From contig JAHDVK010000003.1 of the NCBI GenBank assembly GCA_023384675.1, positions 124,001 to 188,000 of the forward strand: 64,000 nt of DNA, written 5' to 3'. This document shows positions 2,482 to 26,708 of this stretch, piece by piece (positions within the stretch are counted from its first letter, which is position 1; the number at the start of each line of letters is the position of its first letter). Both the position numbers and the translations under genes were made by a program. Under the pieces are notes generated by a model that ran no database searches, was not told the origin of the DNA, and saw only the letters and a list, made by a program, of their open reading frames with translations. Source of the DNA: Bryobacteraceae bacterium. GTDB taxonomy: Bacteria > Acidobacteriota > Terriglobia > Bryobacterales > Bryobacteraceae.

Positions 2482-3759
2482 TTATCCGGCTTTCTCCAGC
2501 AGCGACCAGTTGATCTCCTGCGAGAGGACCATCTCCTTGGTGACCAGAAACTCGCGGACCTTCTTATACGAAGGTATGTAGTACATCAGGTCGAGCATGA
2601 GTTCCTCGAGGATCATGCGCAGCCCGCGAGCTCCCACCTTCCTCTGCAGCGCCTGTTCGGCGATACACTCCAGAGCGTCTTCGCTAAACCTTAGCTTAAC
2701 ATTCTCGTACTCAAACATCCGCTGGTACTGCCGGATCACCGAGTTCTTCGGCTTGGTCAGGATCTCCACCAGCGCCGCCCGGTCCAGATCCTCCAGCACC
2801 CCGCATACCGGCATACGCCCGATGAATTCAGGGATGAAGCCGTAGCGGATCAGGTCCTCCGGCTGCATCTGCTCGAGCAGCGTCATGTCGCGATGCTGCG
2901 GCGTCGAACGCCGGAACGCGTCCGTGGTGGGCGTGTCGCTGCCGGACTTGAAGCCCATCGACTTGCGCCCCACCCGGCGGCTGATGATCTTCTCCAGACC
3001 AACAAACGCGCCGCCACAGATAAACAGAATATTAGTCGTATCGATCGGCGTGAACTCCTGGTGCGGATGCTTGCGCCCGCCTTGCGGCGGCACGTTCGCC
3101 ACCGTCCCTTCCAGGATCTTCAGCAGCGCCTGCTGCACGCCTTCGCCCGAGACGTCGCGGGTGATCGACGGGTTTTCGTCCTTGCGGCTTACTTTGTCGA
3201 TCTCATCGATGTAGATGATGCCAGTCTGCGCGCGCTGCACGTCCCAATCGGCGTTCTGCAGCAGCCGCAGAATGATGTTCTCGACATCCTCACCCACGTA
3301 GCCCGCCTCGGTCAGCGTCGTGGCGTCCACAATCGCGAACGGTACATCGAGTATCCGCGCCAGCGTCTGCGCCAGCAGGGTCTTACCCGTGCCCGTGGGG
3401 CCGATCAGCAGAATATTCGACTTGGACAGCTCCACCTCGCCGGCCCGCTGCCGGTTCATCTGAATCCGCTTGTAGTGGTTATAAACGGCGACCGCGAGCT
3501 TCTTCTTGGTCGCGTCCTGCCCGATCACATACTGATCGAGGTACTCGCGGATCTCCAGCGGCTTGGGCAGTTTATGCAGAGCGCCGTAGGGCTTCTCCGG
3601 GCGGTCGTCCTCGAGAATCGAGTTGCAGACCGCGATGCACTCGTCGCAGATATAGGCGCGAGGGTAGTCACTGGGCGAGGAGATAAGCTTCCCCACCACA
3701 TCTTGACTCTTATGGCAAAAGGAACAACGTAGCGTTTCGTCGCTTCCGGACCGCTTCAC
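2482..3759 (-). CDS. clpX: ATP-dependent Clp protease ATP-binding subunit ClpX
   Basis: AAA+ unfoldase that feeds substrates to ClpP. The 425 residues match the family length. The N-terminal zinc-binding domain has Cys12, Cys15, Cys38 and Cys41. Walker A GPTGTGKT is at residues 120-127 and Walker B IIYIDE at 181-186. The tripeptide MGF at 268-270 sits where the ClpP-docking IGF loop lies in other ClpX proteins, so this ClpX probably still works with a ClpP. The start is a GTG at 3757-3759 with AGGAG a few bases upstream. Trigger factor lies 101 bases upstream and lon downstream, but the clpP gene usually found between tig and clpX is absent. Confidence 0.96.
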
Positions 3760-3860
3760 AAAGGCTCCTGAGCTGGGGCCGGGACCAAGCGCCCGCCTCC
3801 TGCTTCCTCGCTTCCTACTCCATTATTCATCTAAATCATCGCCAGGAGCAATGGCCGACT

Positions 3861-5177
3861 TTAGTCCGCCTGCTCTTCTACACCCTGAGACCCTTCCGCT
3901 TCCGGCGCCTGCGCCACCTTCACGGCGTGCTCAAAAAGGAAATTCAGCACCTTCTCCGTGCGAATGCGGTTCGCGATCCGGTTCAGCGAACCGTCTTTTT
4001 CGAGCTTCATCCGGACCGCCGCCACCGGCTCACGCTGCTGCCGCGCCAGCCGCTGCACCTCCGCATCCACTTCATCCTGCGTGGGATAGATCGATTCCCG
4101 GTCCGCGATCTTGCCCAAAACCAGGGAACCACGCACGTCGCGCCGCGCGCGCTCGCCCTGGCTCTCCCGGTACTTGTTCCAGTCGATGCCTTCCGTCAGC
4201 TTCTGGACATCGGCCCCCTGCGCCGCCAGCGTCCGCAGCTGGTTCTCCAGATTCGTCTGAAGCTGTTGATCCACATAGGAATCCGGCACCGGAAAATCGT
4301 GCAGATCAACCAGTTTTTCGATCAGCGCGTTCTTGGCCCCGGTCTGCGCCATGAACTCGCGCTCCCGGAAAATCGCCTTGCGAATCTCGTCGCGCAACTC
4401 CTCCAGTGTGGTGAAATCGCCCACATCCTGGGCGAATTCATCGTTCAACTCCGGCAGTTCCTTTAACCGGATGGTCTTCAGCGTGATGCGGAAGCGCACT
4501 GTCTTGCCGGCCAGGTTTTCCGCCGCGTAATCTTCGGGATAGCTGACTTCCGCTTCCCGCTCGTCGCCCGGCATCGCGCCCCGCAGCGCCTCGCTGAACG
4601 GCGCCATCGTGTTCTCCGAGCCGATTTCGATATTCAGCTCGTCCTGCTTCACCGGCTTGCCGTCGAGCCCGGCGATGGATTCCAACGAAACCAGGCAGTG
4701 GTCGCCGTCCTGCGCCGGGCGCGGGTCCACGTTCACCAGTTCGGCGCGCGATTCACGGATGTCGTTCAGCCGCTTTTCGACATCCTCATCGGTCGCCTCC
4801 GGCTCAGAGTACCCCACCTCCAGCCCGCGGACTTCCTGCAGTTCGAAATCGGCCGCCACTTCGAACAGCGTCTTGAAGTGGACGCCGCCGTCGTCGTGGA
4901 AGTGTACGTCCTTGATCTCGGGACGGCTCACCACCCGCAGGTTCTCCTTCTCGCATTCCTGGTCGATAAACTTCGGGATCAGGTTCTCCAGCACTTCCTG
5001 CCGGATTTCGGCGGCGAAATTCTTGCGGATCACGCTGATGGGCGCCTTTCCAGGCCGGAAGCCCTTCAGATGCGCCTTCTGTTGGACGGTCAGCTCGACT
5101 TTTGAGCTCTCCTCCGCCATCGCCTCAGCCGGGATGGTGATCTCCAGTTCGTGTTTGCAGCCTTCAACTAGTGCCAA
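3861..5177 (-). CDS. tig: Trigger factor, ribosome-associated chaperone and prolyl isomerase
   Basis: Binds at the ribosomal exit tunnel and shields nascent chains. The open frame extends upstream to 5351, but homology begins at ALVEGCKHELEITIP, the usual trigger-factor N-terminus. I therefore place the start at a TTG (5175-5177) preceded by GAGGA, giving 438 residues. The ribosome-binding loop GFRPGKAP is present near residue 43. The middle carries the FKBP-like PPIase domain (about residues 150-240) and the rest is the helical substrate cradle. It starts 22 bases after the ArsR-methyltransferase gene and is followed by clpX, so it is probably co-transcribed with both. Confidence 0.94.
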   Translation of the reverse strand: MALVEGCKHELEITIPAEAMAEESSKVELTVQQKAHLKGFRPGKAPISVIRKNFAAEIRQEVLENLIPKFIDQECEKENLRVVSRPEIKDVHFHDDGGVHFKTLFEVAADFELQEVRGLEVGYSEPEATDEDVEKRLNDIRESRAELVNVDPRPAQDGDHCLVSLESIAGLDGKPVKQDELNIEIGSENTMAPFSEALRGAMPGDEREAEVSYPEDYAAENLAGKTVRFRITLKTIRLKELPELNDEFAQDVGDFTTLEELRDEIRKAIFREREFMAQTGAKNALIEKLVDLHDFPVPDSYVDQQLQTNLENQLRTLAAQGADVQKLTEGIDWNKYRESQGERARRDVRGSLVLGKIADRESIYPTQDEVDAEVQRLARQQREPVAAVRMKLEKDGSLNRIANRIRTEKVLNFLFEHAVKVAQAPEAEGSQGVEEQAD

Positions 5178-5199
5178 TTCGTCAATTCCTCTAACCTTT

Positions 5200-6141
5200 T
5201 CAGTGTCGCATGGGGGCGGGGGGCTTGTCCCCCGTGGCGAGAATCGTTTCCAGATGGGGCGCCTGCTCCTCACGATGGACCAGCGCCGCCTCGCAACCGG
5301 CAAAGCCAGACGCTTCAAGCATTTGGACCAGTTCCGCCTGCGAAAATCCAAGCCAGAGATCGGCGTACAGCTCGCGCGCTTCCTCGAAATGATGCTTCAA
5401 CAGGTCCAGCACCGCGATCCGCCCGCCCGGCTTCAGAATCCGGTATGCCTCGGCCAGCGCGCGCTCCGGATGTGGCGCATGATGCAAAGATTGCGAGAAA
5501 AAGGCCACATCGACGGACCCGCTTTCGATAGGCAGATCTTCCAGGTCGCCCAGCCGGTACTCCAGGTTCGACAGGCCGTGCCTTCGCGCCAGATCCGCGC
5601 CGAATTCCACCATCTTTTCCGAACTGTCCACCGCGATCACGCGCTCGGCCCGCTGCGCAAGCAGTTGAGCCACCACGCCTTCCCCCGCGCCCAGGTCCGC
5701 GATCACCAGTGGCGGCAGCAGCCGGAGCACCGTCTCCGCCAGCCCCTTCCAGGAGCGCCCCGGCACATAATGGCGGCCAAACTTCCCGGCCAGTTCGTCG
5801 AAATAGGCCCGCACGCGGTCGCGCCGCCGGTCGAGCGCCAGCCGCAGAGCCTTTTCGTCCAGCGCCGCCTCGGGAACCTCCGCCGCCCCCTGCCGCAGCA
5901 CCTCGAGCAAGCCTTCCACTTTCATTGTCTTAAGACGGTAGAGCACATGCTTGCCTGTGCGCCGGTCCTCCACCAGATCCTCGGCTCTGAGCTGCGCCAG
6001 ATGGGTCGAAATCGTGCTCTGACCCAGCGAAAGTATCTCCTGCAGCTCGGAAACCGACAATTCCTCACGCTCCAGCAGCAACAGCAGCCGCAGCCGGTTC
6101 GGATCGGCCAGTAAACGAAATGTTTTGAGGATTGACGGCAC
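5200..6141 (-). CDS. ArsR-family HTH regulator fused to a SAM methyltransferase domain (SahR-like)
   Basis: A 313-residue two-domain protein. Residues about 8-75 form an ArsR winged helix ([14 protein letters not shown], then a recognition helix around [11 protein letters not shown]). Residues about 130-300 form a class I methyltransferase with the SAM-binding motif DLGAGEG and the later [13 protein letters not shown] and LKPGGR stretches. The start is a GTG (6139-6141). It is transcribed divergently from ahcY, 134 bases away, with an inverted repeat in the gap. This architecture and location fit SahR-type regulators, which sense S-adenosylhomocysteine and control SAM-cycle genes. That function is inferred from family knowledge and context. 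A free-standing methyltransferase with its own HTH is the alternative. No metal-binding ArsR cysteine motif is evident. Confidence 0.85.
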
Positions 6142-6157
6142 GGGCAGACATCATCTA

Positions 6158-6173
6158 TGATAGCAACGTATCA
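6158..6173. promoter_or_regulatory. Inverted repeat TGATA-N6-TATCA, candidate operator between the ArsR-type regulator and ahcY
   Basis: A perfect 5-base inverted repeat with a 6-base spacer lies in the 134-base divergent intergenic region, 16 bases upstream of the regulator start. AT-rich dyads of this kind are usual ArsR-family operators. The role in controlling both ahcY and the regulator is inferred. Confidence 0.45.
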
Positions 6174-6218
6174 CGATTTGTCGATAGGAAGATTAACCAG
6201 ACCGGCACGAATCGTAGG

Positions 6219-6252
6219 GCGGGCTTCGGCCCGCGCGGAGCTTCAGCTCCGC
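6219..6252 (+). promoter_or_regulatory. Two tandem GC-rich hairpins in the ahcY leader
   Basis: The first hairpin is GCGGGC-TTCG-GCCCGC (6219-6234). The second is GCGGAGC-TTCA-GCTCCGC (6235-6252) and abuts it directly. Both have perfect stems and stable tetraloop-like loops. They end 12 bases before the AGAGGAG ribosome-binding site of ahcY. There is no T-run after them. They could be an mRNA-stabilising leader, a dispersed palindromic element, or part of an unrecognised cis-regulator. They do not match the SAH riboswitch core that I know. Confidence 0.5.
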
Positions 6253-6275
6253 CAACTTCTTGCAGAGGAGCACGG

Positions 6276-7703
<1,428 letters not shown>

Positions 7704-7725
7704 TCCTCGCTCCATCCACTACAAA

Positions 7726-7760
7726 CAAGGCCGGCCCTCCGGGGACCGGCCTTGCGTTTT
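7726..7760 (+). terminator. Rho-independent terminator after ahcY
   Basis: A 9-base stem CAAGGCCGG/CCGGCCTTG (7726-7734 with 7746-7754) with an 11-base loop, followed by GCG and TTTT. It starts 22 bases after the ahcY stop codon and lies before the convergent lptB gene end. Confidence 0.85.
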
Positions 7761-7799
7761 CCAGATAGGACTTGTCCACTACGGAGCACGCCCGGCGCC

Positions 7800-8546
7800 T
7801 TATCCCCCCAGCGCAAACCCCTCCCCCAGATAAACCCGCCGCACTTCATCATCCAGCGCCAGCGCCGACGGCGTGCCCGCGCGAAAAATGCGCCCGTCGT
7901 TGATGATGTAAGCGCGGTCGGTCACCGCCAGCGTTTCGCGCACGTTGTGGTCCGTGATCAGAACCCCAATGCCGGTCGTCCGCAGCTCCGCGATGATCTT
8001 CTGCAGTTCGATCACCTGAATCGGATCGATGCCCGAGAACGGCTCGTCCAGCAGCAGGAACTCGGGCTGAATCGAGAGCGACCGCGCAATCTCCACGCGC
8101 CGCCGCTCGCCGCCCGACAGCATGTAGCCCTTGTTGTGCCGGACCTTATCAAGGCCCATCTGTTCGATGAGCGATTCCAGCCGCTCGCGCCGCTCATGCT
8201 CCGGAATCGGCAGCGTCTCCAGAATTGCGCGCAGATTGTCCTCCACGCTCAGTTTCCGGAACACTGAAGGCTCCTGCGGCAGATAGCTGATGCCGGCGCG
8301 CGCCCGCTGGAACATGGCCAGCGGAGTGATGTCGCGGTCGTCCAGCAGAACCCGGCCCGAGTCCGGCGTCACCAGCCCCACGATCATGTAGAACGATGTC
8401 GTCTTGCCCGCGCCGTTCGGCCCCAACAGGCCCACCACTTCACCCACCGCCACCGATACCGATACGCCGTCCACCACGCGCCGTCCGCGGTAGGTTTTGG
8501 TGACATCCTGAGTGCGCAGGGTCCGGGGCGGGGCGGGTGAAGACAC
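7800..8546 (-). CDS. lptB: LPS export ABC transporter ATP-binding protein LptB
   Basis: Cytoplasmic ATPase that, with LptF and LptG, drives lipopolysaccharide from the inner membrane to the periplasmic Lpt bridge. The 248 residues have Walker [10 protein letters not shown] (about 41-49), the Q-loop in YLPQEPSVF, the signature [13 protein letters not shown], Walker B FLLLDEP and the H-loop in ITDHNVRE. The [17 protein letters not shown] stretch is characteristic of LptB rather than amino-acid transport ATPases. The start is a GTG (8544-8546) without a strong ribosome-binding site. The usual partners lptA and lptC are not adjacent; a DinB-like gene lies upstream instead. Confidence 0.92.
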
Positions 8547-8573
8547 AGCGGTTATTGTCCCAGATCGCGCCCG

Positions 8574-9092
8574 CTACGGGCGATCCGCGCCTCCCTGGCT
8601 CCTGCCGCCTCCGCTCAGGTGGCGGTAGAAACCGAGATCCTCGCCCGTCGCCGCCTTCGTCAGCAGCAGGACTTGGCCCGTATGCATCGCGAAATGCTCC
8701 ACCACGTGATAGACGGCTTCCAGCACCGTCACCTCGTAGTTCTGCGGCTTCACCTTCTCGCCGAGCCGCTGTTCGCTCAGCCCCGCGATCGCCGCGCACG
8801 CCTCCTCCACCGTGGACCGCAGCCGCGCCAGCATCTGCTCGCGCGTGACTCCGCCCCGGGCGGCAAACTCTTCGTCGCGCTTCCGGAGATCCGGCTCCCC
8901 CGCCACGCCCGCGAGAATCCACTGCCGGACATTCCCCGCCAGGTGCAGGCACAGATTGCCGCACGAATTTGACGCTTCGTTCGGCCGCGCCCAGATCTGA
9001 TCCTCGCTGAGTTGGCCCAGGCAGACCTCAATCCGCTCCAGGCACTGCCGGAGTTTGCAGATCGAGAATCGCTTGAACTCCTCAGCAATCAT
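8574..9092 (-). CDS. DinB/DUF1572-like putative metal-dependent four-helix protein
   Basis: A 172-residue protein of the DinB superfamily, four-helix bundles that bind a metal through histidines and include thiol-dependent transferases. Likely ligands are the His in CLHLAGNVRQW (about residue 50) and the His residues in YHVVEHFAMHTGQ (about 128-137), which follow the family pattern. The substrate is unknown. Because Bryobacter-like bacteria seem to make bacillithiol (bshC lies at 49548), a thiol transferase role is possible, but nothing in the sequence proves it. The gene ends 28 bases upstream of lptB on the same strand. Confidence 0.75.
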   Translation of the reverse strand: MIAEEFKRFSICKLRQCLERIEVCLGQLSEDQIWARPNEASNSCGNLCLHLAGNVRQWILAGVAGEPDLRKRDEEFAARGGVTREQMLARLRSTVEEACAAIAGLSEQRLGEKVKPQNYEVTVLEAVYHVVEHFAMHTGQVLLLTKAATGEDLGFYRHLSGGGRSQGGADRP

Positions 9093-9170
9093 CGCGGCAC
9101 GCTCCGCGCGCCCGCCGGTTCACAACGGCGGCTGGATCGTGGCGCATGTCCCAGCCGCCAAACGCGCCCC

Positions 9171-10487
9171 TCACAGAATCTGGTCCGACCAGCTCTCCAG
9201 CACCGCCTTCACCTTCTGGCAGAATTGATCGGCCAGCGCGCCATCGATCAACCGGTGGTCGAACGTCAGCGCCAGGTAAGCCATCGAACGGATCGCGATC
9301 GCATCGCCGATCACCACCGGAGCCTTCTCGATCGCGCCCACGCCCAGGATCGCCACCTGCGGCTGATTGATCACCGGCGTGGCGAACAGGCTGCCGAACG
9401 AACCGAAGTTCGTGATCGAGAACGTGCCGCCCTGCACTTCGTCCGGCTTCAACTGCCGCGAACGCGCCCGCGAGGCCAAATCCACGATCGAGCGCTGCAG
9501 CCCGACGATATTCTTCTCGTCCGCGCCGCGGATCACCGGCACAATCAGCCCGTTCTCCAGCGCCACCGCGATGCCGATGTTCACTTCGTTGTGATAGAGG
9601 ACATTGGTCCCCTCAATCGAAGCGTTCACCACGGGGAACTGCCGCAGCGCCTCCACCGCCGCGCGCGTGATGAAGGGCAGGAACGTCAGCCCGAAACCGT
9701 AGCGTTGCTGGAAATCGTCCTTCGCCTTCGCGCGCACCTGCGCGATCTTGGTCATGTCCACGCGATGCACCGTCGTGACATGGGCCGAGGTGCGCTTCGA
9801 GTGGATCATGTGCTCGGCGATCTTCGCCCGCATGATCGACATCGGCTCCACGCGCGTGCGCGGCGGCACGGGCTTGGTGGCAGGGGCCGGTTCGGCCTTC
9901 GCTTCGGCCGCCGGCCTCGCCGGTTCCTCAGCCTTCGCGGCGGGCGCGGTTTCGGCCGGCGCGCCTTTGCCGATGACGGCCTCGAGATCGGCCCGCGTGA
10001 TGCGTCCGCCCGCACCGGTTCCTTTCACCGTCTTCAGGTCGATGTTGTTCTCGCGCGCCATGCGCCGCACCAGCGGCGAGACCGGGCCGGAGAATTCTTC
10101 TTCGTCGCCCTTGGCCTCCGCCGGAGTCTCAGCTTCGGCGGGCTTCGGCTCTTCCTTGGGCTCTTCCTGTTTGGCTTCTTCCTTCGGCGGCTCGTCCGGC
10201 TTCGGCTCTTCCTTCTTTTCTTCTGCTGCCGGCGCCGCGGCCGCCGCGCCGTCGCCCTCGCCGACGCGCGCCACCACGGCGTTCACCTGCACGGTATCGC
10301 CTTCCTGCGCCAGGATCTCGGTCAGCGTGCCCGCCGCGGGCGAAGGGATCTCGGTGTCCACCTTATCGGTGGAAATCTCGAACAGCGGCTCGTCGCGCTC
10401 CACCTTGTCGCCCACTTTCTTGAGCCACTTGGTCAGCGTCCCTTCCACAATGCTCTCGCCCATCTGGGGCATTACGACATCGGCCAT
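9171..10487 (-). CDS. Dihydrolipoamide acyltransferase (E2) of a 2-oxo acid dehydrogenase complex
   Basis: E2 core of a 2-oxo acid dehydrogenase complex; it moves the acyl group from lipoate to CoA. The start is the ATG at 10485-10487 with GGAG 8 bases upstream, giving 438 residues. Residues 1-75 are a lipoyl domain with the modified Lys in EISTDKVDTEIP. A long Ala/Glu/Lys/Pro linker follows, then a peripheral-subunit-binding domain (SPLVRRMARENNIDL) and the catalytic domain ending in DHRLIDGALADQF. The composition resembles succinyltransferase-type or branched-chain E2 proteins and I cannot tell them apart. It follows lipB and lpd in one probable operon; the E1 gene is not in the window. Confidence 0.93.
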   Translation of the reverse strand: MADVVMPQMGESIVEGTLTKWLKKVGDKVERDEPLFEISTDKVDTEIPSPAAGTLTEILAQEGDTVQVNAVVARVGEGDGAAAAAPAAEEKKEEPKPDEPPKEEAKQEEPKEEPKPAEAETPAEAKGDEEEFSGPVSPLVRRMARENNIDLKTVKGTGAGGRITRADLEAVIGKGAPAETAPAAKAEEPARPAAEAKAEPAPATKPVPPRTRVEPMSIMRAKIAEHMIHSKRTSAHVTTVHRVDMTKIAQVRAKAKDDFQQRYGFGLTFLPFITRAAVEALRQFPVVNASIEGTNVLYHNEVNIGIAVALENGLIVPVIRGADEKNIVGLQRSIVDLASRARSRQLKPDEVQGGTFSITNFGSFGSLFATPVINQPQVAILGVGAIEKAPVVIGDAIAIRSMAYLALTFDHRLIDGALADQFCQKVKAVLESWSDQIL

Positions 10488-10510
10488 GGCAAAATCTCCG
10501 TTCCTCAATC

Positions 10511-11185
10511 CTATGCCGGCGGCCGGGCGAGCGCCGGCTCGCCCAACCCGGCGGGTTCGTATTCAAAGACCTCGGCGAATGCCGCGGCCAGCGCTTCCAG
10601 CACCGCGCCGCGCTCCGCGCGAACGCCCAGTTTCTCCATCGACGTCACCGGCCGCCGCAGGCCGCACGGGACGATGTACTCGAAAAACCGCAAATCCGTG
10701 GTCCAGTTCAGCGCGAATCCGTGCGTGGTCACCCAGCGGCTGATATGGACCCCCATCGCGCAGATCTTCGCGCCTTCCACCCACACGCCCGTCGCGCTCG
10801 CGTCCCGCGCGCCCGTAACGCCAAACCGCCGCAGCGCCCGCAGCACCACGTCTTCGAGCCCGCGGATATACGCCACCACGTCGCGCTTCCACCCGCGCAG
10901 ATCGACCACCGGATATCCGACAATCTGTCCGGGCCCGTGATAGGTGATGTCGCCCCCGCGGTCGATCTCCACCAGGTCGATGCCCAGTCCGGCCAGCCGC
11001 TCCGGGCTCACCAGCAGATTCTCCGTATGCGCGTTTCGTCCCAACGTCAATACATGTGGATGCTCGAGCAGCAACAGTTGATCCGCGCCCTCGCCGCGCT
11101 TGCGCTGTTCCGCCAGCTCGCGCTGCAGCGCCCACGCTTCGCGATACGGCATCAACCCCAGGTCTCGAACCGCGAGCTTACGCAT
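10511..11185 (-). CDS. lipB: Octanoyl-[acyl-carrier-protein]:protein N-octanoyltransferase LipB
   Basis: Transfers octanoate from acyl carrier protein to lipoyl domains, the first step of lipoate assembly. The 224 residues carry the family block DRGGDITYHGPGQIVGYP (about 77-94), the catalytic Lys in GAKICAMG and the catalytic Cys in IVPCG. It overlaps the end of lpd by 8 bases and ends 23 bases before the E2 gene. Its product probably modifies the E2 lipoyl domain encoded by the next gene. lipA is not in the window. Confidence 0.95.
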   Translation of the reverse strand: MRKLAVRDLGLMPYREAWALQRELAEQRKRGEGADQLLLLEHPHVLTLGRNAHTENLLVSPERLAGLGIDLVEIDRGGDITYHGPGQIVGYPVVDLRGWKRDVVAYIRGLEDVVLRALRRFGVTGARDASATGVWVEGAKICAMGVHISRWVTTHGFALNWTTDLRFFEYIVPCGLRRPVTSMEKLGVRAERGAVLEALAAAFAEVFEYEPAGLGEPALARPPA

Positions 11186-12572
11186 TGATCGCCAGGCCGT
11201 ACACGTTGTTGAAGGCTTCTCCCACGGCTTCGTAGAGCGTCGGGTGGGCGTGAATCGTGTGGATCATCGTGTCCACGGTAGCTTCGGCCTCCATCGCCGC
11301 CACCGCTTCGGCGATCAGTTCGTAGCCGTGCGGGCCGATGATATGAACGCCGAGGATCTCGCCGTACTTGGCGTCGGCCACCACTTTGACGAACCCGTCG
11401 TGGCTGCCCAGAATCGAGGCTTTCGAGTTCCCCAGGAACGGAAATTTGCCGATTTTGACGTCATAACCGGCCTCTTTGGCCTGTTTTTCCGTCAATCCGA
11501 CGCTCCCGATGCCCGGTTCGGTATAGGTCGCGCCCGGAATCCGCCGCTTGTTGATCGGCACCGCTTCCTTCCCTGCGATGTGCGCCACCGCCACCATGCC
11601 TTCCATCGTGGCGACATGCGCCAGCTGCGGCGTGCCGGCGACGATGTCGCCGATCGCATACACGCCCGCCTCGCCCGTGCGCTGGTAAGGATCCACCTTC
11701 ACAAAGCCGCGGTCCAATTCCACCTTCGTATTCTCGATGCCCACATTGTCGGTGTTCGGCTTGCGCCCCACGGCCACCAGCAGCGTGTCGCCTTCCACTT
11801 CCTCGGTGGCGCCCGAGGCGAGCTGCACCTTCAGCTTCACTCCGCCGTCGTGCTTGTGCACTTCCAGGACCTTCGCGCCCGGCTCGCAGTTGATCTTCTG
11901 CTTCTTGAAGCTGCGCAGGAGTTCCTTGCTGACGTCCTCGTCCTCCACTGGCACCAGCCGCGGCAGCATCTCGAAAACCGTCACGTCCGAGCCGAACCGC
12001 TTGAAAATCGAAGCGAATTCCACACCCACCGCGCCCGCCCCGATCACCAGCAGGCGCTTCGGAACCTCGCGCATCTGCAGGATCTCGACATTCGTCACCA
12101 CGCGAGGCGCGTCGATTTCGAGATTCGGCAGCATCCGCGCCTCGGACCCGGTGGCCAGGATCACCGCCTCTCCCTCGATCACGCGCTTCTCGCCGTCGTT
12201 CGTCACCTCGACCTTGCCGCCGCCCAGCAGCCTGCCGAAGCCCTGGATCACTTCCACCTTGTTCTTCTTCATCAGCATGCCCACGCCGCCGGCGTGCTTG
12301 CTGACGATCTTGTCCTTGCGCTCCAGCACCTTGGCCAGATCGAGCCGCGGATCCTGACAATAGATGCCCTGCTCCTCGGAATGCTGAAAATAGTCCCACA
12401 CCTCGGCAGTGTGCAAGAGGGCCTTGGTCGGCACGCAGCCTACATGGAGACAGGTGCCTCCGAGCTTCGGATCTTTCTCAATCAGGGCGGTCTTCAGGCC
12501 GTACTGGCCTGCGCGAATCGCAGCGGAATAGCCCCCCGGACCGCTGCCGATGACGATCACGTCGTAGGACAT
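11178..12572 (-). CDS. lpdA: Dihydrolipoyl dehydrogenase (E3)
   Basis: FAD-dependent E3 that reoxidises the dihydrolipoamide of 2-oxo acid dehydrogenase complexes, reducing NAD. The 464 residues begin with the FAD-binding motif GSGPGGYSAA. The redox-active pair is in GGTCLHVGCVPTK (about 39-51), the NAD motif is GAGAVGVEFAS, and the dimer-interface His-Glu region is HAHPTLYEAVGEAF near the C-terminus. It is the first gene of the lpd-lipB-E2 unit. The start lies 42 bases from the divergent POTRA gene, so the two may share a promoter region. Confidence 0.96.
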   Translation of the reverse strand: MSYDVIVIGSGPGGYSAAIRAGQYGLKTALIEKDPKLGGTCLHVGCVPTKALLHTAEVWDYFQHSEEQGIYCQDPRLDLAKVLERKDKIVSKHAGGVGMLMKKNKVEVIQGFGRLLGGGKVEVTNDGEKRVIEGEAVILATGSEARMLPNLEIDAPRVVTNVEILQMREVPKRLLVIGAGAVGVEFASIFKRFGSDVTVFEMLPRLVPVEDEDVSKELLRSFKKQKINCEPGAKVLEVHKHDGGVKLKVQLASGATEEVEGDTLLVAVGRKPNTDNVGIENTKVELDRGFVKVDPYQRTGEAGVYAIGDIVAGTPQLAHVATMEGMVAVAHIAGKEAVPINKRRIPGATYTEPGIGSVGLTEKQAKEAGYDVKIGKFPFLGNSKASILGSHDGFVKVVADAKYGEILGVHIIGPHGYELIAEAVAAMEAEATVDTMIHTIHAHPTLYEAVGEAFNNVYGLAINA

Positions 12573-12614: not shown

Positions 12615-13916
12615 ATGAGGACCGTTGCGCTGCTCATGCTGGGCGCCCTGCTCACCCCGGCGCAGGCCCCGCGCCCCGACGCGATTCGCGAGATCCGCGT
12701 CGAAGGCCACAAGCGGCTCGCCGAGGCCGAAGTCATCCGTCTGAGCGGCCTCAAGCCCGGTGACCCGGCCGCCGCCGCCACCTTCGAAGCCATGCGCGAC
12801 CGCATCCTCGAAACCGGCTGCATCGAGACCGTCGGCTGGCGCTGGGAGCCCCGCCAGGGCGGCGGCTTCACCGCCACCATCGAAATCACCGAAGCCAGCC
12901 AGCTTCTGCCCTGGGCCGTCGACCGCCTGCCCATCACAACCGAGGACATTCAGTCCCTTGGCACGCGGGAACTCCCCTGCTTCGGCCCCGAAATCCCCAC
13001 CTACGACCGCTACATCACCCGCGCCGCCGCCGCGGTGAACAAACTCGCCCGCGAACGCGGCTTCGACGATGAGGTGATCGCCAAAGTCGGCATCGTCGGC
13101 CGCGACCAGCCCTCCGTCATCTTCCAGCCCAAAACGCCCGCCCCCAACATCGCCGATGTCCGCTTCACCGGCAATGAAGCCATCGAGGAGAAATGGCTCC
13201 GCCGCCAGATGAACGAAGTCGCCCGCGGCGCGCAATTCTCGGAAAATCTCTACCGGCAGTTTCTCGAGAGCCAGATCCGCCCCATGTACGAAAACGTGGG
13301 CCGGCTCACCGTCCAATTCGGGAAAATCACCACCGAACCGGCCAAGGACGTGAAAGGCGTCGTGGTTACCACCGAGGTCGCCGAAGGCCCGGTGTTCGAA
13401 CTGGAGGACGTGGAAATCCAGGGCATGCCGCTCAGCCCGGAGCGCATCGACGAACTCGCCGAATACAAGCGCGGCGAACCCGTCAGCTACTCCAAAATGG
13501 CCGTCACCATGGAAAAACTCTTCCAGGACCTGCGGAACAACGGCTACTTGAAACCCGCCTATTCCGCCAAACGCCAGATCAACGCCGAGCAGTTGACCGT
13601 GAAGCTCATCGTGGACGTCACGCCCGGCCCGCAGTTTCGCATGGGCCGCCTCCTCATCCGCGGCCTCGACGTCATCAGCGAGCCCGTCATCCGCCAGATG
13701 TGGACGCTCCAGCCCGGCGACCCCTTCCGCGACGATTACCCCAACTTCTTCGCCGGTTCCGTCAAGGAACGCGGCGTCTTCGACTTTCTGGCCAACGTCC
13801 GCGCCGAAAAGAAGCTGAATGAGGACAACCGCACCGTGGATGTCACCCTGTTCTTCGAAGCCGGAGCGCAGGGCCTCGACTCGCGCGCTACGCCGAAACC
13901 CAAACCGCGGCAGTAA
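12615..13916 (+). CDS. Secreted POTRA-repeat protein without an Omp85 barrel
   Basis: A 433-residue protein with a signal peptide (MRTVALLMLGALLTPAQA), then four to five POTRA-like units. The clearest start at IREIRVEGHKRL, IADVRFTGNEAI, LEDVEIQGMPLS and MGRLLIRGLDVI (about residues 25, 180, 260 and 340). It stops at residue 433 with a short Pro/Lys tail, exactly where a BamA-type barrel would be expected. It is therefore a periplasmic POTRA chain. A role as a soluble partner of an outer-membrane assembly machine is inferred. The ATG at 12615 is preceded by GGAGG with almost no spacer, so the start is moderately uncertain. The frame is open further upstream, but that part is antisense to lpd. 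Confidence 0.8.
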   Translation: MRTVALLMLGALLTPAQAPRPDAIREIRVEGHKRLAEAEVIRLSGLKPGDPAAAATFEAMRDRILETGCIETVGWRWEPRQGGGFTATIEITEASQLLPWAVDRLPITTEDIQSLGTRELPCFGPEIPTYDRYITRAAAAVNKLARERGFDDEVIAKVGIVGRDQPSVIFQPKTPAPNIADVRFTGNEAIEEKWLRRQMNEVARGAQFSENLYRQFLESQIRPMYENVGRLTVQFGKITTEPAKDVKGVVVTTEVAEGPVFELEDVEIQGMPLSPERIDELAEYKRGEPVSYSKMAVTMEKLFQDLRNNGYLKPAYSAKRQINAEQLTVKLIVDVTPGPQFRMGRLLIRGLDVISEPVIRQMWTLQPGDPFRDDYPNFFAGSVKERGVFDFLANVRAEKKLNEDNRTVDVTLFFEAGAQGLDSRATPKPKPRQ

Positions 13917-19627: not shown

Positions 19628-22600
19628 TCAGAACGCCTGTCCGATCGAGAAGAAGAAACCGCCGCGCGGCTCGCCCGGGCGGCGGTCCAGGATCAGCCCG
19701 TAATCGAAGCGCAGCAGGAAGTAGGGCGTACGGACGCGCACGCCGCCGCCGCCCGTTTTGCGAATGTCGCGCAGGCTCAGGTCGCGAATGCTGGGATAGA
19801 CGTTGCCGATATCGGAAAACGCCACTCCCTCCAGCAGACTGATGAGCGGGAACCGCAGCTCATTGTTTACCAGCATCAGCGCGTCGCCGCCCGTGGCGTC
19901 ACCGAAGAAATCCAGCGGACCCACAGCATTCAACGCGAAGCCGCGCAGCGTGGTGCCGCCGCCGGTGAAAAAGCGCTCGCTGCGCACCAGTTCCTGGCCG
20001 CGCAGCCCCGAAGCGAGGCCCACGCGCGCCGCGCCCGCGTACACGAAACGCGACCGCCGGATGCCGCCGCCCATCGGCACTTCGGCCGGTTTGGTCAGCG
20101 GCACGTACTTGAAGAACTGCCCGTAGTAGCGGACGAAATTGAGCTGCGAACCGATGCCCGCGGGCGCGTATTCCAGCGAATGCGACATGAACGAGCCGCG
20201 CGTTGCGTCCAGCAGCTCGTCGCGCGATTCGCGATTCAGGGTCCAGGTGAGCGGCGCAACCCGCAATGAGACATCGAACGGGAAGAACGGATCCGGGATG
20301 CGGTCGTAGGTGCGCACGTTCTCCATCCGGTAGCCGTAATTCATCGTGTAGCGCTGGCCGAAGCGCAGCTCCTGCTGGGCCGAGACGCCCGCGCGGTCGT
20401 TGATGAAATCGGGCAGGATCTCGCGCCGCAAATACGTGGTGGCGATGGTCTGCAGCGGCAGGCGCTGCAGCAGCGGCTGCGAGAAAAAGAAGCGCGTCTC
20501 GCGGATCTCGCCGTCCAGCCGCCCGCGCCAGCCCAGCGTGCGCGCCGAGCCGAGCGAATTGCGGTTGGTGATGTCGATCACGGCGCCGGGGCCGCGGTCC
20601 GTGTCGAAGTACGCGCCGTAACGGATGTCGAACGGCTGCACCTCGCGGACGCGCGCCCGCAGGCGAATGGGCTGCTGTCCAGTGGTGATGTTGCCGCCGC
20701 TCACCGGCACGCGCTCCACGTCCACCAGCGCGAAAGCGCCTGTTGCATAGAGGCGGCGGCGCGACAGGCTCACCTTCGAGGGATCCAGAACGTCCCCTGG
20801 CTGAAGCGCGAGCTGCGAGCGGATCAGCCGCTCGCTCACCGCGCGCTCGCCTTCCACCTCGAGGCTTTCCACCACCTGCTGCGGGCCTTCGGTGATTTGC
20901 ACGTCCAGATCCACCTGTCCCGGCTTTTCCGCGCGCACGACGCGCGTTTCCACCTGGGCGTTGGTGTAGCCGGACGAGTAATATGCATCGAGCACGCGGT
21001 CGAGCGACTCCTGCCGCAGAACGGGCGTGTAGGACGCTCCGCTGCGCAAGGGCATTTTCCCGATCAGGTCGTCGCTCTTGAACGCTTCATTGCCCGCCAG
21101 CCGGATCTCGCTCACCTCGAAAGCGGGACCTTCTTCCACCTCGATCGTGACCGTGGCGCGGCCCGCTTCGCGGTCGAATTCCACGCGCGGCGCGGGCGTC
21201 ACGGTGTCCAGATAGCCCTTCTCGCGGTACACACCGCGCACCAGGTCAGTCACGCGCCGAGCGTTAAGGAATAGAATCGGGCGTAGTTTGCCCTTGTCGA
21301 TCGCCGCGGTCAGCTCCTTCGCGGATACCGCCTCGTTGCCCTCGAACACAAGCGCGGGCTTGCGGTAACGCACGCCCGGTTCGGACTTGAAGGTCACCGT
21401 GCGCAGCCCCGGTTCGGTGTCTTTGACCTCCGCCTCCACTACGGCCTCGAAGTGGCCGCGCCGCACGAGGGTCTCGCGCAGCGCGCGGGCGGTTTCATCG
21501 AGACGCTGGCCGTCGAACACGCCATCGCGCCAGAGGTCGCGCACCTGCCGGCGGACCTTGCGCGAGGGCGCGTAGCCTTCGAAGTTGAGCAGCACGCGCG
21601 GGCCTTCCTCGATCGTCAGGGTGAGATCGACTTCGGTGTCGTGGACCTCGCGCTCCAGGCGCAGGCGGGCTTCCAGCCGGTCCCGCTTGTCGTAGTCCTT
21701 CGCGATCCGGTCCAGCCCCTGGCGGATGTTGAAGAAATCGTAGCGGCGGCCGGGGCGGGCTTTCAGGCGCTTGCGCAGCCGGTCCTCCGTGAAGAGGTCA
21801 TTGCCGCTGACTTGGACCTCGCCGATGCGCCGCCGGGCTTGCGTTTCGCGGCGTTGACTCGGGTCGCCGCCGAAGCGGACATCGTGGCGGAACTCGAAGC
21901 GGTAGGTGTTGTCCACCTGTTTGACGCCGCGCGCGACGAAGCGGCGTGTAAGGTCGTATTCGGCCACCCACACCTGATCGCCGCCGTTGGCGAGGTTCAT
22001 CGAGTAAATCAGCCGGGCGTCGCGCGTAATGTCTTGTCCGACGGTGAGCCGCGCCGTGGGGTTCGATTCGGCGGCGATCAGATCCGGCTCCACGCGTACC
22101 TTCGAGAGGCCCGTGGCGCGCTCGATCTCGCGCGTAAAACGCCCGCCGAGGCTGCCGGCGAGGTAGCTCAGCACCTGCCGGCTCGCCATCGTAGAGGCAT
22201 CCGAACCGCGGATCTCTTCGAGCGGACGTCCCGTGATGAGCACCGCGATGATATCGGGCTCCGGTTCGGGTGGATCGCTGGTGAGGCGGGTTTCGATCCG
22301 CTCGGCGCCGCCGCCTTCCACCTGCAGGGTGATGTCGAGCCCGCCGGCGCGGGTGCGCGCCAGGATGTCCAGCGAAGGCTCGATGCGCTGCTCGTTGGTG
22401 AAGGTGATGCGCCCGCGCTCCAGCGGGTAGGTGCGTTCGGCGAGATAGAGTTCGCCGCCTTCCTCGATTTCGATACGGCCGAGCAGGCTGGGCCGGTAGG
22501 GTGTGCCCACCACGCGCAGGTCGGTGTTGACTTCAGCGCGCGCGAGGTTGTTATTGATCAGCAGCGGCGCCACGGTCTTCAGGTTGATGTCGAGGCGCGT

Positions 22601-25600
22601 GCGCTCCAGGATCTCGTTGCGCTCCTCGGTGAGGTCCACGCCCTGCTCGGAGTTCAGGTAGGCCAGCAGCCCGGTCTCGAGCGCCAGCACTTCGCGGAAC
22701 GCGCCTTCGACAAGGTCGATGTTGCCCGAGAGCAGAAAGCCGCTGCCCTCGTTGCGGAAACGCAGCGCGGTGTTCGACACGGTGCGGAAATCGGCTGGGT
22801 AATCCAGATAGACTCCCGTGGCGCCGAGTTGGATGTCTGTCTCGCCGAGCGTTCCCCCGTTGAGACGGACGCTGCCGCTGCCCGAGAGCTTACCGCCGTT
22901 CAGCAGGCCGCTGAGCCTGGCGATGGTAATCTGCTCGCCGTCGAATTCGACGCGCGCGTTCACCGCTTCGGCGGCCAGGCGCGGCTCGGGCACGTTCATC
23001 TCGAGGTTGGTGAGTTCGAGGAATCCGGCGGTCTTCAGATCGTCCAGCGGGCCGCGCGCGCTGAAGTCGATGGTGGCGGGGCCGCGCAGCCGCAATGGCT
23101 CCAGCAAGCCAGCGAGCAGCCCGGTTTCCAGACGCCCCTGAAAGCGGAAATCGGCGGCGGGGGTTTCGAGCAGCGTCGCGCTCCCGGTTAGATTCAGTTC
23201 GGTGCCCGGACCGGTGAGCGTGAAGTCCGTCACTTCCACTTTGCCGTTTTCGAGGCGAATCGTCGAAGGCGCTTTCTGCGCCACGGGGATGTCGGACAGG
23301 CGCAGCTGCAACTCATCGAAGGTGAGCGCGGCGCGCACGGCTGCCAGTTCCGGCGCGCGGCTTTCGGCGGTCAGACGGAGCGAGATCAAGCCGGAAGTCA
23401 GCTCGGGCGCGCCTTCAATGTTCGCGGGGTCCAATCCCTCCAGCGCGATTTTGGCCTGCGCCGGCGGACCGTCCGCGGTCAGCGGCCACGGCGAAGAGGC
23501 GCTGCCCGAAAGCTTCGCGCCCGCCCATTCGCCGGTCAGCCGCGTGAGTTGAAACAGGTTGTCGCGCAGCGCCGCCTCGAGTTCCAGCCCGTTCACGGGA
23601 TTCAGGCCCTCGGCTTCGAAGCGGCCTCCGGCGAGCGAAACCTGGGCTTCGGGTTCATATTTCTGCAGGGTTCCGCGCACGGCGGCATTCAGCGCGATTT
23701 TGCCCTCAATGTGCTGTTTTTCGGGCCATTCCGGCATGAATTTTGGCAATTCCGCGAGATCGGCGTTCGCGGTGAGCCGCAATTCGCCCGGCGCACCCGT
23801 TTCCGCCAACGGAAACTCGCCGCTGAGGGAAACGGCCGTGCCCGCCGTGCGGATCTCGCCTTGCCGGATATGGAGCCGCAGGCCCGCCACTTCCACATCC
23901 AGCGGGCCTTCCGTGGTGATCGCCTGTCCTTGATAGACCAGCGCTTCCGGTTCCAGAGTCAGCCGCGCGTTCAGCTTTTCCGGCGTCTCCAGCGGGCCCT
24001 CGCCTTTCAACAGCGCGCGCAGCTTGCCGGTGAGCGGCAGGTTTTCAGGCAGCGGCAGCGCTGCGAGGTCCGTGCCCGCGGCTTCGATGGTGAAGGTGGC
24101 AGGGTAAGGCGCTTCGATTCCCGTACGCAGGCGGCCCTGCAGCGCGTAGCGCGGGGCTTCGAGTTCCACTGTGGCCTTGCCCGCGGCGACCTGCGTGAGA
24201 GTTTTGATGGCGCCCAATTCCAGCTCGTCCACCAGCAGCGACTCGACGCTCGCCGCCAGCCGCAGCGCCGGCTCCTTGATTGTGCCCGCGCCTTCGCCCT
24301 CCAGCTTGAGTACGCCACGAATAGGAAGTTTTTCGGGCAGTTCGAGCTGTTCCAGCCGTAGCGCCGCGGCTTGCAGCGTAACGCGGTATTCTTCCTGTTC
24401 CAGGTTGTACTCGCCTGCGAACGTGAGCGGTTCGCTGCCCGGTTTGTCGAGGCGCGCTTCGCGCAGCGTCACCGTATCACCGCGATAATCAGCCAGCAGG
24501 CGGAGTGCGCCGAGTGGTTCGCGGTAGGCTTCCAGGCCGGAGGCGGTGAGTTCGACGCTCGCCGCAAGCTGATCGACCGGCCCTTCCGCGCGGGCGGTGA
24601 GCGTGAAATCGCCGCGCACGGGCAGATCGTGGATTCCTAGCCCGGGAAGCGTGTTTTCGAGCGAAAAACCATCGCTTTTTGCGTCAAAAAGCAGCTCCGG
24701 AACCGCTTTTTCGAGGTCCAGATGGCCCGTGCCGCGCACCTGCTGCCCGCGCCAGGCGAGCATCAGTTCCGCGATTTCGACAGCCTTTTGCGAGGCCGTG
24801 AGCGAGGCGTCGAGCGTGGCGCCTTCGACATCCCCCGCGCCCAGATTGCGGCCCGCCAGAGTCGCGCTCACGCGCGGGTCCTCGACAGTTCCGGAAAGCC
24901 GCGCCTCGAGGCGCGCTTCGCCCCGCAGCGTTTCTTCCACGGCATCGAGGGCGGGCACATCCAGCGTGAAATTGCCCGACAAGCGCCGCGCGGCGTCCAT
25001 CGCCGCCTGCCCGGTGAGCCGCACGCCCTCGTAATCCCGCACCTCGGCGGTGATGCGCGCGCGGGCCTGGGCCTGGTCGAAATCGAGCGCGGGCATCCAG
25101 GCCTCGGCGTTGAGAACCGCGCGGGTATTCAGCGGAAGCTGGCGGTCGAGGCGGGCGGTGGCGGTGAGGCGCGTTTCGCCCGCGGCCTCGCTGAGGGCGG
25201 CGGACCCTTTCACGCGCAGGGTGCCGTAGGGGCTGGCGGCTTGCAGGTTTGTGAGGTACAGCCGCTGTTCGTCGAGGTTGAAGTGCGCGGCGGCGGCCAG
25301 CCCCACGTCGAAGCCCTTGCCCGCAAGTTCAAAGGTGAAGTCCGGGCCGTTGGCGGTTCCGGCAAGCATCAGCGAGCCGGGCGTGAAGGGCCGCAGATCG
25401 GCCTCGACGGTGAAGCGGGCATCCTCCAGCAGCAGGGTTTTGGGATTCACCTTGCCCTGCAGATAGACGGTCTTGACGGTGACGCGATCGTTCTCATAGC
25501 GGACGTAGCCCGGCTGCGAATTGCCGAAGTAGAGGTCGCGGTCCGTCAGGTGCAGCCGCCAGGCGGGCACTTCGGCCTCGGCCTGGAGGGCGTCGTCGCG

Positions 25601-26071
25601 GAAGCGCAGCGTGCCGTCCTGGAGGAGCAGTTCGGTGACGCGCCAATCCGGCGGAGTGAACGGCTCATCGTCTTCCGCCGGCGGCGGCTGGGGGATGTTC
25701 GACCGGCCATCGGCGGTGAAGACCGCCTCCACCGCGGGCCGGTCCACGAAGAAGCGTTCGACATCGATCTCGCCGCTCCAGAGCGTGCGCCAGCGCACGC
25801 TGAGTTCCATGCGGCGGGCCGCGAACACGGGCGGCAGATCCGGCTGACTAGCGGCGCGCACTTCGAGGCCGCCGATCCACAGCTTCAATTCGGGCAGGCT
25901 GTAGTCGAGAGACCCCACGCGCAGGTCCACATCATAATCGCGGAGAATTGTTTGGACTTTGGCGAAGACGGCGTAACGCGCGCGGTCGGTGTGCAGCACG
26001 AAGAGGCCCGCAGCGGCGAGCAGGATCAGGGCGCCCAACCCCCATGCGCAGATGCGTACGAACCGCCTCAC
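19628..26071 (-). CDS. Giant TamB-Omp85 (TamA/BamA-like) fusion protein
   Basis: One uninterrupted 2147-residue frame that joins two normally separate proteins. Residues about 7-27 are an N-terminal membrane anchor. Residues 30-1400 are AsmA/TamB-like beta repeats ending in the TamB (DUF490) C-terminal block, recognisable by EPEPDIIAVLITGRPLEEI near 1270. Residues about 1412-1805 contain five POTRA units (first begins RIGEVQVSGNDLF). Residues 1806-2147 are an Omp85 barrel with GGGTTLRGF near 2040 and a terminal Phe. The chain could span inner membrane, periplasm and outer membrane alone. By TamA/TamB analogy it may insert outer-membrane proteins or move lipids. The start is a GTG at 26069-26071, 22 bases after the TPR gene; the ribosome-binding site is weak. 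Confidence 0.93.
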   Translation of the reverse strand: MRRFVRICAWGLGALILLAAAGLFVLHTDRARYAVFAKVQTILRDYDVDLRVGSLDYSLPELKLWIGGLEVRAASQPDLPPVFAARRMELSVRWRTLWSGEIDVERFFVDRPAVEAVFTADGRSNIPQPPPAEDDEPFTPPDWRVTELLLQDGTLRFRDDALQAEAEVPAWRLHLTDRDLYFGNSQPGYVRYENDRVTVKTVYLQGKVNPKTLLLEDARFTVEADLRPFTPGSLMLAGTANGPDFTFELAGKGFDVGLAAAAHFNLDEQRLYLTNLQAASPYGTLRVKGSAALSEAAGETRLTATARLDRQLPLNTRAVLNAEAWMPALDFDQAQARARITAEVRDYEGVRLTGQAAMDAARRLSGNFTLDVPALDAVEETLRGEARLEARLSGTVEDPRVSATLAGRNLGAGDVEGATLDASLTASQKAVEIAELMLAWRGQQVRGTGHLDLEKAVPELLFDAKSDGFSLENTLPGLGIHDLPVRGDFTLTARAEGPVDQLAASVELTASGLEAYREPLGALRLLADYRGDTVTLREARLDKPGSEPLTFAGEYNLEQEEYRVTLQAAALRLEQLELPEKLPIRGVLKLEGEGAGTIKEPALRLAASVESLLVDELELGAIKTLTQVAAGKATVELEAPRYALQGRLRTGIEAPYPATFTIEAAGTDLAALPLPENLPLTGKLRALLKGEGPLETPEKLNARLTLEPEALVYQGQAITTEGPLDVEVAGLRLHIRQGEIRTAGTAVSLSGEFPLAETGAPGELRLTANADLAELPKFMPEWPEKQHIEGKIALNAAVRGTLQKYEPEAQVSLAGGRFEAEGLNPVNGLELEAALRDNLFQLTRLTGEWAGAKLSGSASSPWPLTADGPPAQAKIALEGLDPANIEGAPELTSGLISLRLTAESRAPELAAVRAALTFDELQLRLSDIPVAQKAPSTIRLENGKVEVTDFTLTGPGTELNLTGSATLLETPAADFRFQGRLETGLLAGLLEPLRLRGPATIDFSARGPLDDLKTAGFLELTNLEMNVPEPRLAAEAVNARVEFDGEQITIARLSGLLNGGKLSGSGSVRLNGGTLGETDIQLGATGVYLDYPADFRTVSNTALRFRNEGSGFLLSGNIDLVEGAFREVLALETGLLAYLNSEQGVDLTEERNEILERTRLDINLKTVAPLLINNNLARAEVNTDLRVVGTPYRPSLLGRIEIEEGGELYLAERTYPLERGRITFTNEQRIEPSLDILARTRAGGLDITLQVEGGGAERIETRLTSDPPEPEPDIIAVLITGRPLEEIRGSDASTMASRQVLSYLAGSLGGRFTREIERATGLSKVRVEPDLIAAESNPTARLTVGQDITRDARLIYSMNLANGGDQVWVAEYDLTRRFVARGVKQVDNTYRFEFRHDVRFGGDPSQRRETQARRRIGEVQVSGNDLFTEDRLRKRLKARPGRRYDFFNIRQGLDRIAKDYDKRDRLEARLRLEREVHDTEVDLTLTIEEGPRVLLNFEGYAPSRKVRRQVRDLWRDGVFDGQRLDETARALRETLVRRGHFEAVVEAEVKDTEPGLRTVTFKSEPGVRYRKPALVFEGNEAVSAKELTAAIDKGKLRPILFLNARRVTDLVRGVYREKGYLDTVTPAPRVEFDREAGRATVTIEVEEGPAFEVSEIRLAGNEAFKSDDLIGKMPLRSGASYTPVLRQESLDRVLDAYYSSGYTNAQVETRVVRAEKPGQVDLDVQITEGPQQVVESLEVEGERAVSERLIRSQLALQPGDVLDPSKVSLSRRRLYATGAFALVDVERVPVSGGNITTGQQPIRLRARVREVQPFDIRYGAYFDTDRGPGAVIDITNRNSLGSARTLGWRGRLDGEIRETRFFFSQPLLQRLPLQTIATTYLRREILPDFINDRAGVSAQQELRFGQRYTMNYGYRMENVRTYDRIPDPFFPFDVSLRVAPLTWTLNRESRDELLDATRGSFMSHSLEYAPAGIGSQLNFVRYYGQFFKYVPLTKPAEVPMGGGIRRSRFVYAGAARVGLASGLRGQELVRSERFFTGGGTTLRGFALNAVGPLDFFGDATGGDALMLVNNELRFPLISLLEGVAFSDIGNVYPSIRDLSLRDIRKTGGGGVRVRTPYFLLRFDYGLILDRRPGEPRGGFFFSIGQAF

Positions 26072-26093: not shown

Positions 26094-26708
26094 TCAGCGC
26101 ACGGTGCGCATGACGGAGCGGACGCGCGCGGCCTCGGGAGCGTTGGGCGCGAGCTTCAGGAAGCTCTCGAAGTGATTCACCATGCGGTCGGGCCGCTTCA
26201 CCTGGTTGTAGGCCAGGCCGGCGTAATAGTGGGCGTAGGCGTTGCCCGGTTCGTTGGCGCAGGCCTTTTCGAGATCATCGGCGGCGCCGCGGAAATCCTT
26301 GCGGACCACTTTCAACAGGCCGCGAACGTATGGCAGGCGGGGATGATCGGGGCCGGCCTTTTCGGCGGCGGCGATGCCTTTGGCGGCGTCCTCGGCGCGA
26401 TTTTGTTCGGCGGCCACTTCGGCGAAGGAGAGCTGAGTGAGGGCCTGATCGGGGGCGATTTCGATGGCGCGGGCGGCGGCAGCGCGCGCTTCATCGCCCT
26501 TGTCGAGACGAAGCAGCGCGAGCGCATGGTAGGCGGCGGCCTCGGGGTTGGTTTCGTTCTGGGCGAGTTCGCCGCGCAGGGTTTGCTCGGCTTCGGCGAA
26601 CTTGTTTTCCTGAAAGAGCTTCACGCCGGCGGAGTGGTCCGCGGCGAAGGCGAACACGGCAGCGCCGGTCCACAGCGCGAAGCAGGCGATTGCGGATTTG
26701 GAGAACAT
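26094..26708 (-). CDS. Secreted tetratricopeptide-repeat protein
   Basis: A 204-residue protein with a signal peptide (MFSKSAIACFALWTGAAVFAFA) and four to five tetratricopeptide repeats, seen as the alternating helices around AAAYHALALLRLDKGDEA, ALTQLSFAEVAAEQNRAEDA and AYAHYYAGLAYNQVKRPD. It should lie in the periplasm and bind another protein. It is directly upstream of the TamB-Omp85 fusion with 22 bases between, so the two are probably co-transcribed and may work together. There is no similarity in the sequence to BamD-type lipoproteins, as no lipobox Cys follows the signal. Confidence 0.85.
   Translation of the reverse strand: MFSKSAIACFALWTGAAVFAFAADHSAGVKLFQENKFAEAEQTLRGELAQNETNPEAAAYHALALLRLDKGDEARAAAARAIEIAPDQALTQLSFAEVAAEQNRAEDAAKGIAAAEKAGPDHPRLPYVRGLLKVVRKDFRGAADDLEKACANEPGNAYAHYYAGLAYNQVKRPDRMVNHFESFLKLAPNAPEAARVRSVMRTVR

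Follow-up and report, generated by a model that had tools for sequence, protein, structure and literature searches.

It is debated whether TamB bridges both membranes of the envelope and passes lipid straight on to an Omp85 barrel, the two-protein complex being long, flexible and only partly resolved. In the proteobacterial translocation and assembly module (TAM), which is encoded by two genes in the order tamA-tamB, an inner-membrane-anchored TamB groove meets the Omp85 barrel of TamA, a protein with three POTRA domains. The C-terminal domain of TamB docks at the barrel seam, where its last strand pairs with the first barrel strand of TamA, and TamB binds phospholipid and touches the POTRAs (PMC12800296). 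Borrelia combines TamB with a BamA-type Omp85 of five POTRAs, and in models the two form a hybrid barrel in which POTRA1 lies close to POTRA5 (PMC13382580). BamA-TamB operons and a seven-POTRA BamA copy have been described in Acidobacteria by Heinz et al. (2015), the available part of which mentions no fusion (PMC4494059), and the available part of a 2014 survey of Omp85 proteins covers WD40 and patatin types and mentions no TamB fusion (PMC4104836). Here, we describe a gene in a 64,000-nucleotide stretch of a Bryobacteraceae genome (contig JAHDVK010000003.1, positions 124,001 to 188,000; hereafter, the window) that shares these components. Unlike TAM and the BamA-TamB pairs of Borrelia and Acidobacteria, it encodes them as a single chain. 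It further differs from TAM in that TamB precedes Omp85, in the five POTRAs and in having a tetratricopeptide repeat (TPR) protein as partner.

Among one-chain concepts, the closest is the long MlaD of Veillonella parvula, in which an inner-membrane domain and an outer-membrane beta-barrel are joined in a single polypeptide; it has been proposed as a transenvelope lipid bridge (PMC10665443). Long MlaD differs, however, in belonging to the mammalian cell entry (MCE) family with an ABC transporter, in its unrelated fold and narrow barrel, and in its proposed retrograde transport. The TamB half of the fusion resembles YhdP/YdbH, Vps13, Atg2 and LPD-3 in its repeating beta-groove, hydrophobic inner face and chorein-like N-terminus. 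YhdP and YdbH are kin of the bridge-like lipid transfer proteins, and we know of no protein of the YhdP, YdbH, Vps13, Atg2 or LPD-3 type with an Omp85 barrel of its own.

TamB, five POTRAs and an Omp85 barrel in one reading frame

The initial annotation had read the frame as a membrane anchor, TamB repeats, five POTRAs and an Omp85 barrel ending in Phe, and Pfam returns the same domain order and boundaries (Table 1). From a GTG start codon, the chain opens with an AsmA/DUF748-like N-terminus, in which the first hydrophobic helix has a mean hydropathy of 2.34 while all other stretches lie at or below 1.1. The TamB match (E 5e-34; 118.7 bits against a curated cut-off of 22.4) is followed by five POTRA matches (E 2e-44) and a PF01103 Omp85 match at residues 1838-2147 (E 2e-34). 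The C-terminal domain, predicted N-terminal signal-anchor helix and beta-rich groove that define the TamB family (PF04357; Heinz et al., 2015) are all present, as is the strand resembling those of outer-membrane proteins with which TamB normally ends, although it is internal here. The POTRAs and barrel of the second half likewise define a member of the Omp85 superfamily. The best NCBIfam match of this half is BamA (TIGR03303), whose equivalog cut-off of 297 bits it misses with 254 bits, and it scores 65 bits against TamA (NF047950), for which the cut-off is 625. On the grounds of its five POTRAs and best profile match, the Omp85 half is better called BamA-like than TamA-like; the TamA/BamA-type barrel of the initial annotation is thus retained as an Omp85 barrel with five POTRAs, but not as the TamA type, which has three. 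The single frame also sets the protein apart from the canonical TAM with its separate TamA and TamB genes.

A phylum-wide but patchy gene family

The window gene is one of 46 genes with the same layout in a single frame (1909-2539 aa), drawn from many assemblies of Acidobacteriota. In the eight fusion genes aligned over their full length, every C-terminus reads IGQAF or IGQAY. The initial annotation had proposed looking for the same fusion elsewhere in the phylum, and a single-frame match spanning the TamB-POTRA junction, free of in-frame stops, is found in 85 of 396 sampled Acidobacteriota genomes from 33 family codes (a tally counted by hand from the junction matches in the phylum genome sample). 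The fusion is not listed for any genome of one large family (f8), and within the window's own genus, it is present in two of four genomes, the other two (95-98% complete) being without it. Named genomes with a fusion match are metagenome-assembled genomes of Acidobacteriota throughout, several of them labelled Bryobacterales or Bryobacteraceae. Two 9-residue patterns, which reach close relatives only, returned 18 loci in named genomes, all from Acidobacteriota, and a plasmid search returned separate BamA-type matches without the fusion. We found no published description of a TamB-Omp85 fusion in the open-access literature (preprints lay outside this scope). The gene is not a one-off but belongs to a phylum-wide, patchy family.

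The fusion from a second genome of the same genus (L037) is 75% identical to that of the window, and the ratio of nonsynonymous to synonymous substitution rates (dN/dS) between the two is 0.16 overall and 0.09-0.13 across the junction (0.13 at residues 1370-1425), like the flanks. The low ratio over the junction indicates that the join is translated and constrained; together with the open reading frame (ORF) itself and the 46 genes of the same layout, it bears out the one uninterrupted frame of 2147 residues that had been proposed.

Whether separate genes exist beside the fusion, a point raised in the initial annotation, is answered by the same genome. A canonical BamA is encoded on contig 10 (TIGR03303, 429 bits), while contig 17 carries a BamA-like gene (321 bits), a small gene resembling peptidyl-prolyl isomerases (PPIases) and SurA, and a free TamB (1343 aa); a small Omp85 is encoded on contig 8. 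A second, separate TamB match is also present in all seven of the other fusion carriers first found. Because separate BamA and TamB genes are present in the same genome, the fusion is an extra copy, added to TAM and the beta-barrel assembly machinery (BAM), and not a replacement for either. The small PPIase/SurA-like gene (L036, 9853-10506, minus strand) encodes an exported protein and is flanked by the BamA-like gene and the free tamB; judged by position only, a gene of similar size occupies the equivalent place in L044-L047.

Structure models and fold matches

AlphaFold2 was run on separate halves, comprising residues 1-1150 (32 sequences) and 1048-2147 (42 sequences). The first model has a mean predicted confidence (pLDDT) of 87; it opens with the N-terminal helix and another helix, after which it is made up almost entirely of strands. 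In the 59 long strands of this model, 63% of one face is hydrophobic and 9% charged, against 37% charged on the other, an alternation stronger than in 500 of 500 shuffles. Plain Foldseek ranked apolipoprotein B and LptD first for this half with poor TM-scores, and the matches were hence read with a second aligner, whose list includes the Vps13 N-terminus and LPD-3 (both Z 9.2), TamB of TamAB (Z 9.1) and the TamB beta-taco (5vtg, Z 7.5). YhdP is in neither list of groove matches, which has no bearing on kinship. The long groove with its hydrophobic inner face is that expected of a bridge-like lipid transfer protein, with a modest fold match. The second model (pLDDT 80) contains the six-strand C-terminal domain of TamB, followed by five POTRAs and a barrel, and matches TamA and BamA with Z ~21.

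Table 1. Coordinates of the fusion gene, its predicted parts and the TPR partner gene in the window.
Feature	Position	Strand	Basis
Fusion gene, 2147 aa (TamB, five POTRAs and Omp85 barrel in a single frame)	19628..26071	-	ORF, Pfam
N-terminal hydrophobic helix, residues 2-26, predicted inner-membrane signal anchor	25994..26068	-	Hydropathy
Second helix, residues 29-44, chorein/AsmA-like groove cap	25940..25987	-	Pfam, AlphaFold2; Vps13 N-terminus match begins at residue 32
Repeating beta-groove, ~residues 48-1270	22262..25930	-	AlphaFold2, face composition, fold matches
Pfam TamB (former DUF490), residues 1055-1384	21920..22909	-	PF04357
Six-stranded TamB C-terminal (pseudo-substrate) domain, residues 1324-1400, end ...YRFEFRHDVRF	21872..22102	-	Model, alignment
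Junction linker, ~residues 1401-1414, GGDPSQRRETQARR	21830..21871	-	Alignment, dN/dS
Five POTRA domains, residues 1415-1810, beta-alpha-alpha-beta-beta x5 in model	20642..21829	-	Pfam, AlphaFold2
Omp85 barrel, residues 1814-2147, TTLRGF motif, C-terminus IGQAF	19631..20632	-	Pfam, model, fold match
TPR partner gene, exported protein of 204 aa, 23 bp upstream of fusion	26094..26708	-	TPR families

The junction and the origin of the fusion

The terminal strand of free TamBs of Acidobacteriota has a sequence such as ...VDFLFRKRF(K). Its counterpart, ...YRFEFRHDVRF, is retained in the fused chains of the window's clade, where it is followed by GG, a linker of ~14-20 residues and POTRA1. The initial annotation had supposed that fusion would remove the need for docking, but the pseudo-substrate domain that docks in TamAB is still in the chain; its retention suggests that fusion tethers the parts without replacing their contact. 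A hydrophobic helix is present at the N-terminus of nearly all chains whose N-terminus is complete and at the join in 0 of 46 fused chains, and no signal peptide or other membrane helix was found at the join in any of the 46 members, leaving the Omp85 half without an export signal of its own. An internal start yielding a separately exported Omp85 is thereby ruled out and, since the join has no signal peptide, the sequences imply that neither half can be exported without the other.

Elsewhere in the phylum, split tamB-omp85 pairs occur in the same gene order at 12 loci, with gaps of -65 to +103 bp in mechanical gene calls. Such pairs are likely the precursor of the fusion, which would arise from them if a single stop and a single signal peptide were lost. 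Trees of the Omp85 and TamB halves are broadly congruent, each resolving a large fused group and a second fused clade of 11, with the split genes apart. When the longest outgroup rows are removed from the Omp85-half tree, the fused halves without L141 fall on one side of a branch with a support of 91, which is not decisive. The simplest reading of these topologies is one ancient fusion and one further event, but fission from a fused ancestor may have occurred instead. The fused tree does not follow the family codes, which suggests transfer of the fusion between families. Two loci stand out within the trees. The fused gene of L141 (G102, 5196-12401) is placed among the split genes in both half trees, and is possibly a second, independent fusion. 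L169 (G394, 2482-5202) encodes a 906-residue Omp85 with only a small C-terminal piece of TamB; it groups with the fused barrels and is likely a reduced or re-split fusion.

A conserved TPR partner

The initial annotation had suggested that a secreted TPR protein encoded just upstream may belong to the system, and the distribution of this gene supports it. In a profile search, 16 of the 46 fusion loci have a neighbouring TPR homologue, placed upstream and in the orientation of the fusion in eight cases and downstream, pointing towards the fusion, in the other eight; the count is 0 for the 25 loci fetched for split TamB/Omp85 genes. A TPR match of at least ~140 bits is present in 38 of 396 genomes, of which 34 contain the fusion (32 complete and 2 cut by contig ends); the Fisher p of 3e-20 for this co-occurrence is a guide only, given the relatedness of the genomes and a score line set once the data had been seen. 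Within the 61 nearest genomes, the TPR gene occurs in ten. Seven of these have an intact fusion adjoining, and in the other three, the fusion follows the TPR gene and is cut by a contig end (G018, G019) or damaged (G049). The occurrence of the same partner in two gene orders argues for a functional link between the TPR protein and the fusion. Apart from this gene, no neighbour is conserved in more than 5 of the 46 loci.

BamD is a TPR-fold lipoprotein that binds the membrane-proximal POTRAs of BamA. The partner similarly combines a TPR fold with an export signal, its N-terminus (MFSKSAIACFALWTGAAVFAFA) being signal-like as judged by eye. No cysteine is found at the likely cleavage site (FAFAAD), and the protein looks non-lipidated. 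Its conserved tail reads AYAHYYAGLAYxxxxRPDxMxxHFExFLKLAPxAPE.

Two further loci concern the partner. In L177 (G049, 3684-7852), the TPR gene precedes the damaged fusion, in which the middle of the groove is missing and two overlapping frames correspond to the N-terminus and the POTRA-barrel part. In genomes of family f18, where no fusion was found, L180 (G112, 5264-6007) encodes a TPR homologue (~146 bits) that represents either a close paralogue or a partner lacking its fusion.

Proposed mechanism and alternatives

We consider it fairly probable that the fusion forms a single-chain, TAM-like bridge that delivers lipid to the outer membrane and perhaps assembles some barrel proteins. We infer this function, including bridging, the lipid cargo and a hybrid barrel, from TamAB, YhdP and the Borrelia BamA-TamB. 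The chain order of anchor, groove, docking strands, POTRA ring and barrel would be that of a coupled bridge. The N-terminal helix would stay in the inner membrane while the beta-groove crosses the periplasm and keeps lipid tails shielded, and the C-terminal TamB strands would dock at the seam of their own attached barrel, as in TamAB and the Borrelia pair, so that lipid, and possibly selected barrel proteins, could be delivered into the outer membrane. If folded likewise, the TamB strand would end on the periplasmic side of the barrel, from where the short linker could reach POTRA1 when the POTRA ring is closed. Fusion would fix a 1:1 stoichiometry and tie the groove to its own barrel, the TPR protein may act on the POTRA ring as BamD does on BamA, and the whole would run beside the canonical BamA and the separate BamA-TamB operon. 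For the physically linked export or lipid-transfer machine of the initial annotation, a linked bridge is the natural reading, while export or lipid transfer would follow by analogy. Going further, it is possible, if more doubtful, that the family represents a phylum-specific additional route of outer-membrane biogenesis, with a permanent intramolecular hybrid barrel of TamB strand and own barrel, lipid moving along one polypeptide to the barrel seam, and gating by the TPR protein, all separate from the cell's canonical BAM and TAM.

As a natural fusion, the gene is strong evidence that TamB and a BamA-type Omp85 work together, and the conserved TPR partner is a new candidate component. Because one natural polypeptide carries both the anchor for one membrane and the barrel for the other, physical bridging and 1:1 coupling can be tested directly, and the protein is a good target for structure work.

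Several points weigh against the bridge. The halves were modelled apart, contacts between the TamB strands and the barrel are not readable from the models, and a groove Z of ~9 is modest for long beta repeats. No clear TPR partner is found near the members of the deep 11-row fused clade. As TAM is also known for protein assembly, the main cargo may be something other than lipid. The chain may also be cleaved at the linker in the cell. Were it made and exported whole and then cleaved at the junction in the periplasm, it would work as an ordinary BamA-TamB pair with co-regulated amounts. The apparent linker length, which ranges from none to >100 residues over the family (partly a profile-edge effect in divergent members), fits a loosely constrained, possibly cleavable stretch. 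The linker of the window's clade, however, is short and evolves under purifying selection, and there would be little reason for a phylum-wide fusion if the halves separate, while split operons persist; we therefore regard cleavage as improbable.

The cargo question leads to a somewhat stronger, though still unlikely, alternative, in which the protein is a machine devoted to assembling or secreting particular proteins of the outer membrane or surface, with the groove as a stiff scaffold and lipid transport incidental. The Omp85 half has an insertase fold, TAM assembles autotransporters (PMC12800296), and the partner belongs to a common adaptor fold, all of which would suit such a machine. Yet no conserved substrate gene adjoins the fusion, the TPR gene being the only recurrent neighbour, and the groove retains a strongly hydrophobic inner face. 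Finally, a damaged, internally deleted copy does exist in one relative (G049, L177), but an assembly artefact, frameshift error or decaying pseudogene is refuted for the family by the single frame in 46 genes, the low dN/dS throughout and the lack of in-frame stops, and is hardly credible for the window gene.

A barrel-less POTRA protein in the window

The window encodes one further POTRA protein, which is found in 54 of the 61 nearest genomes and thus shows no linkage to the fusion. This exported protein of 433 residues (12615-13916, plus strand) consists of POTRAs only (PF07244, E 3e-25) and is barrel-less.

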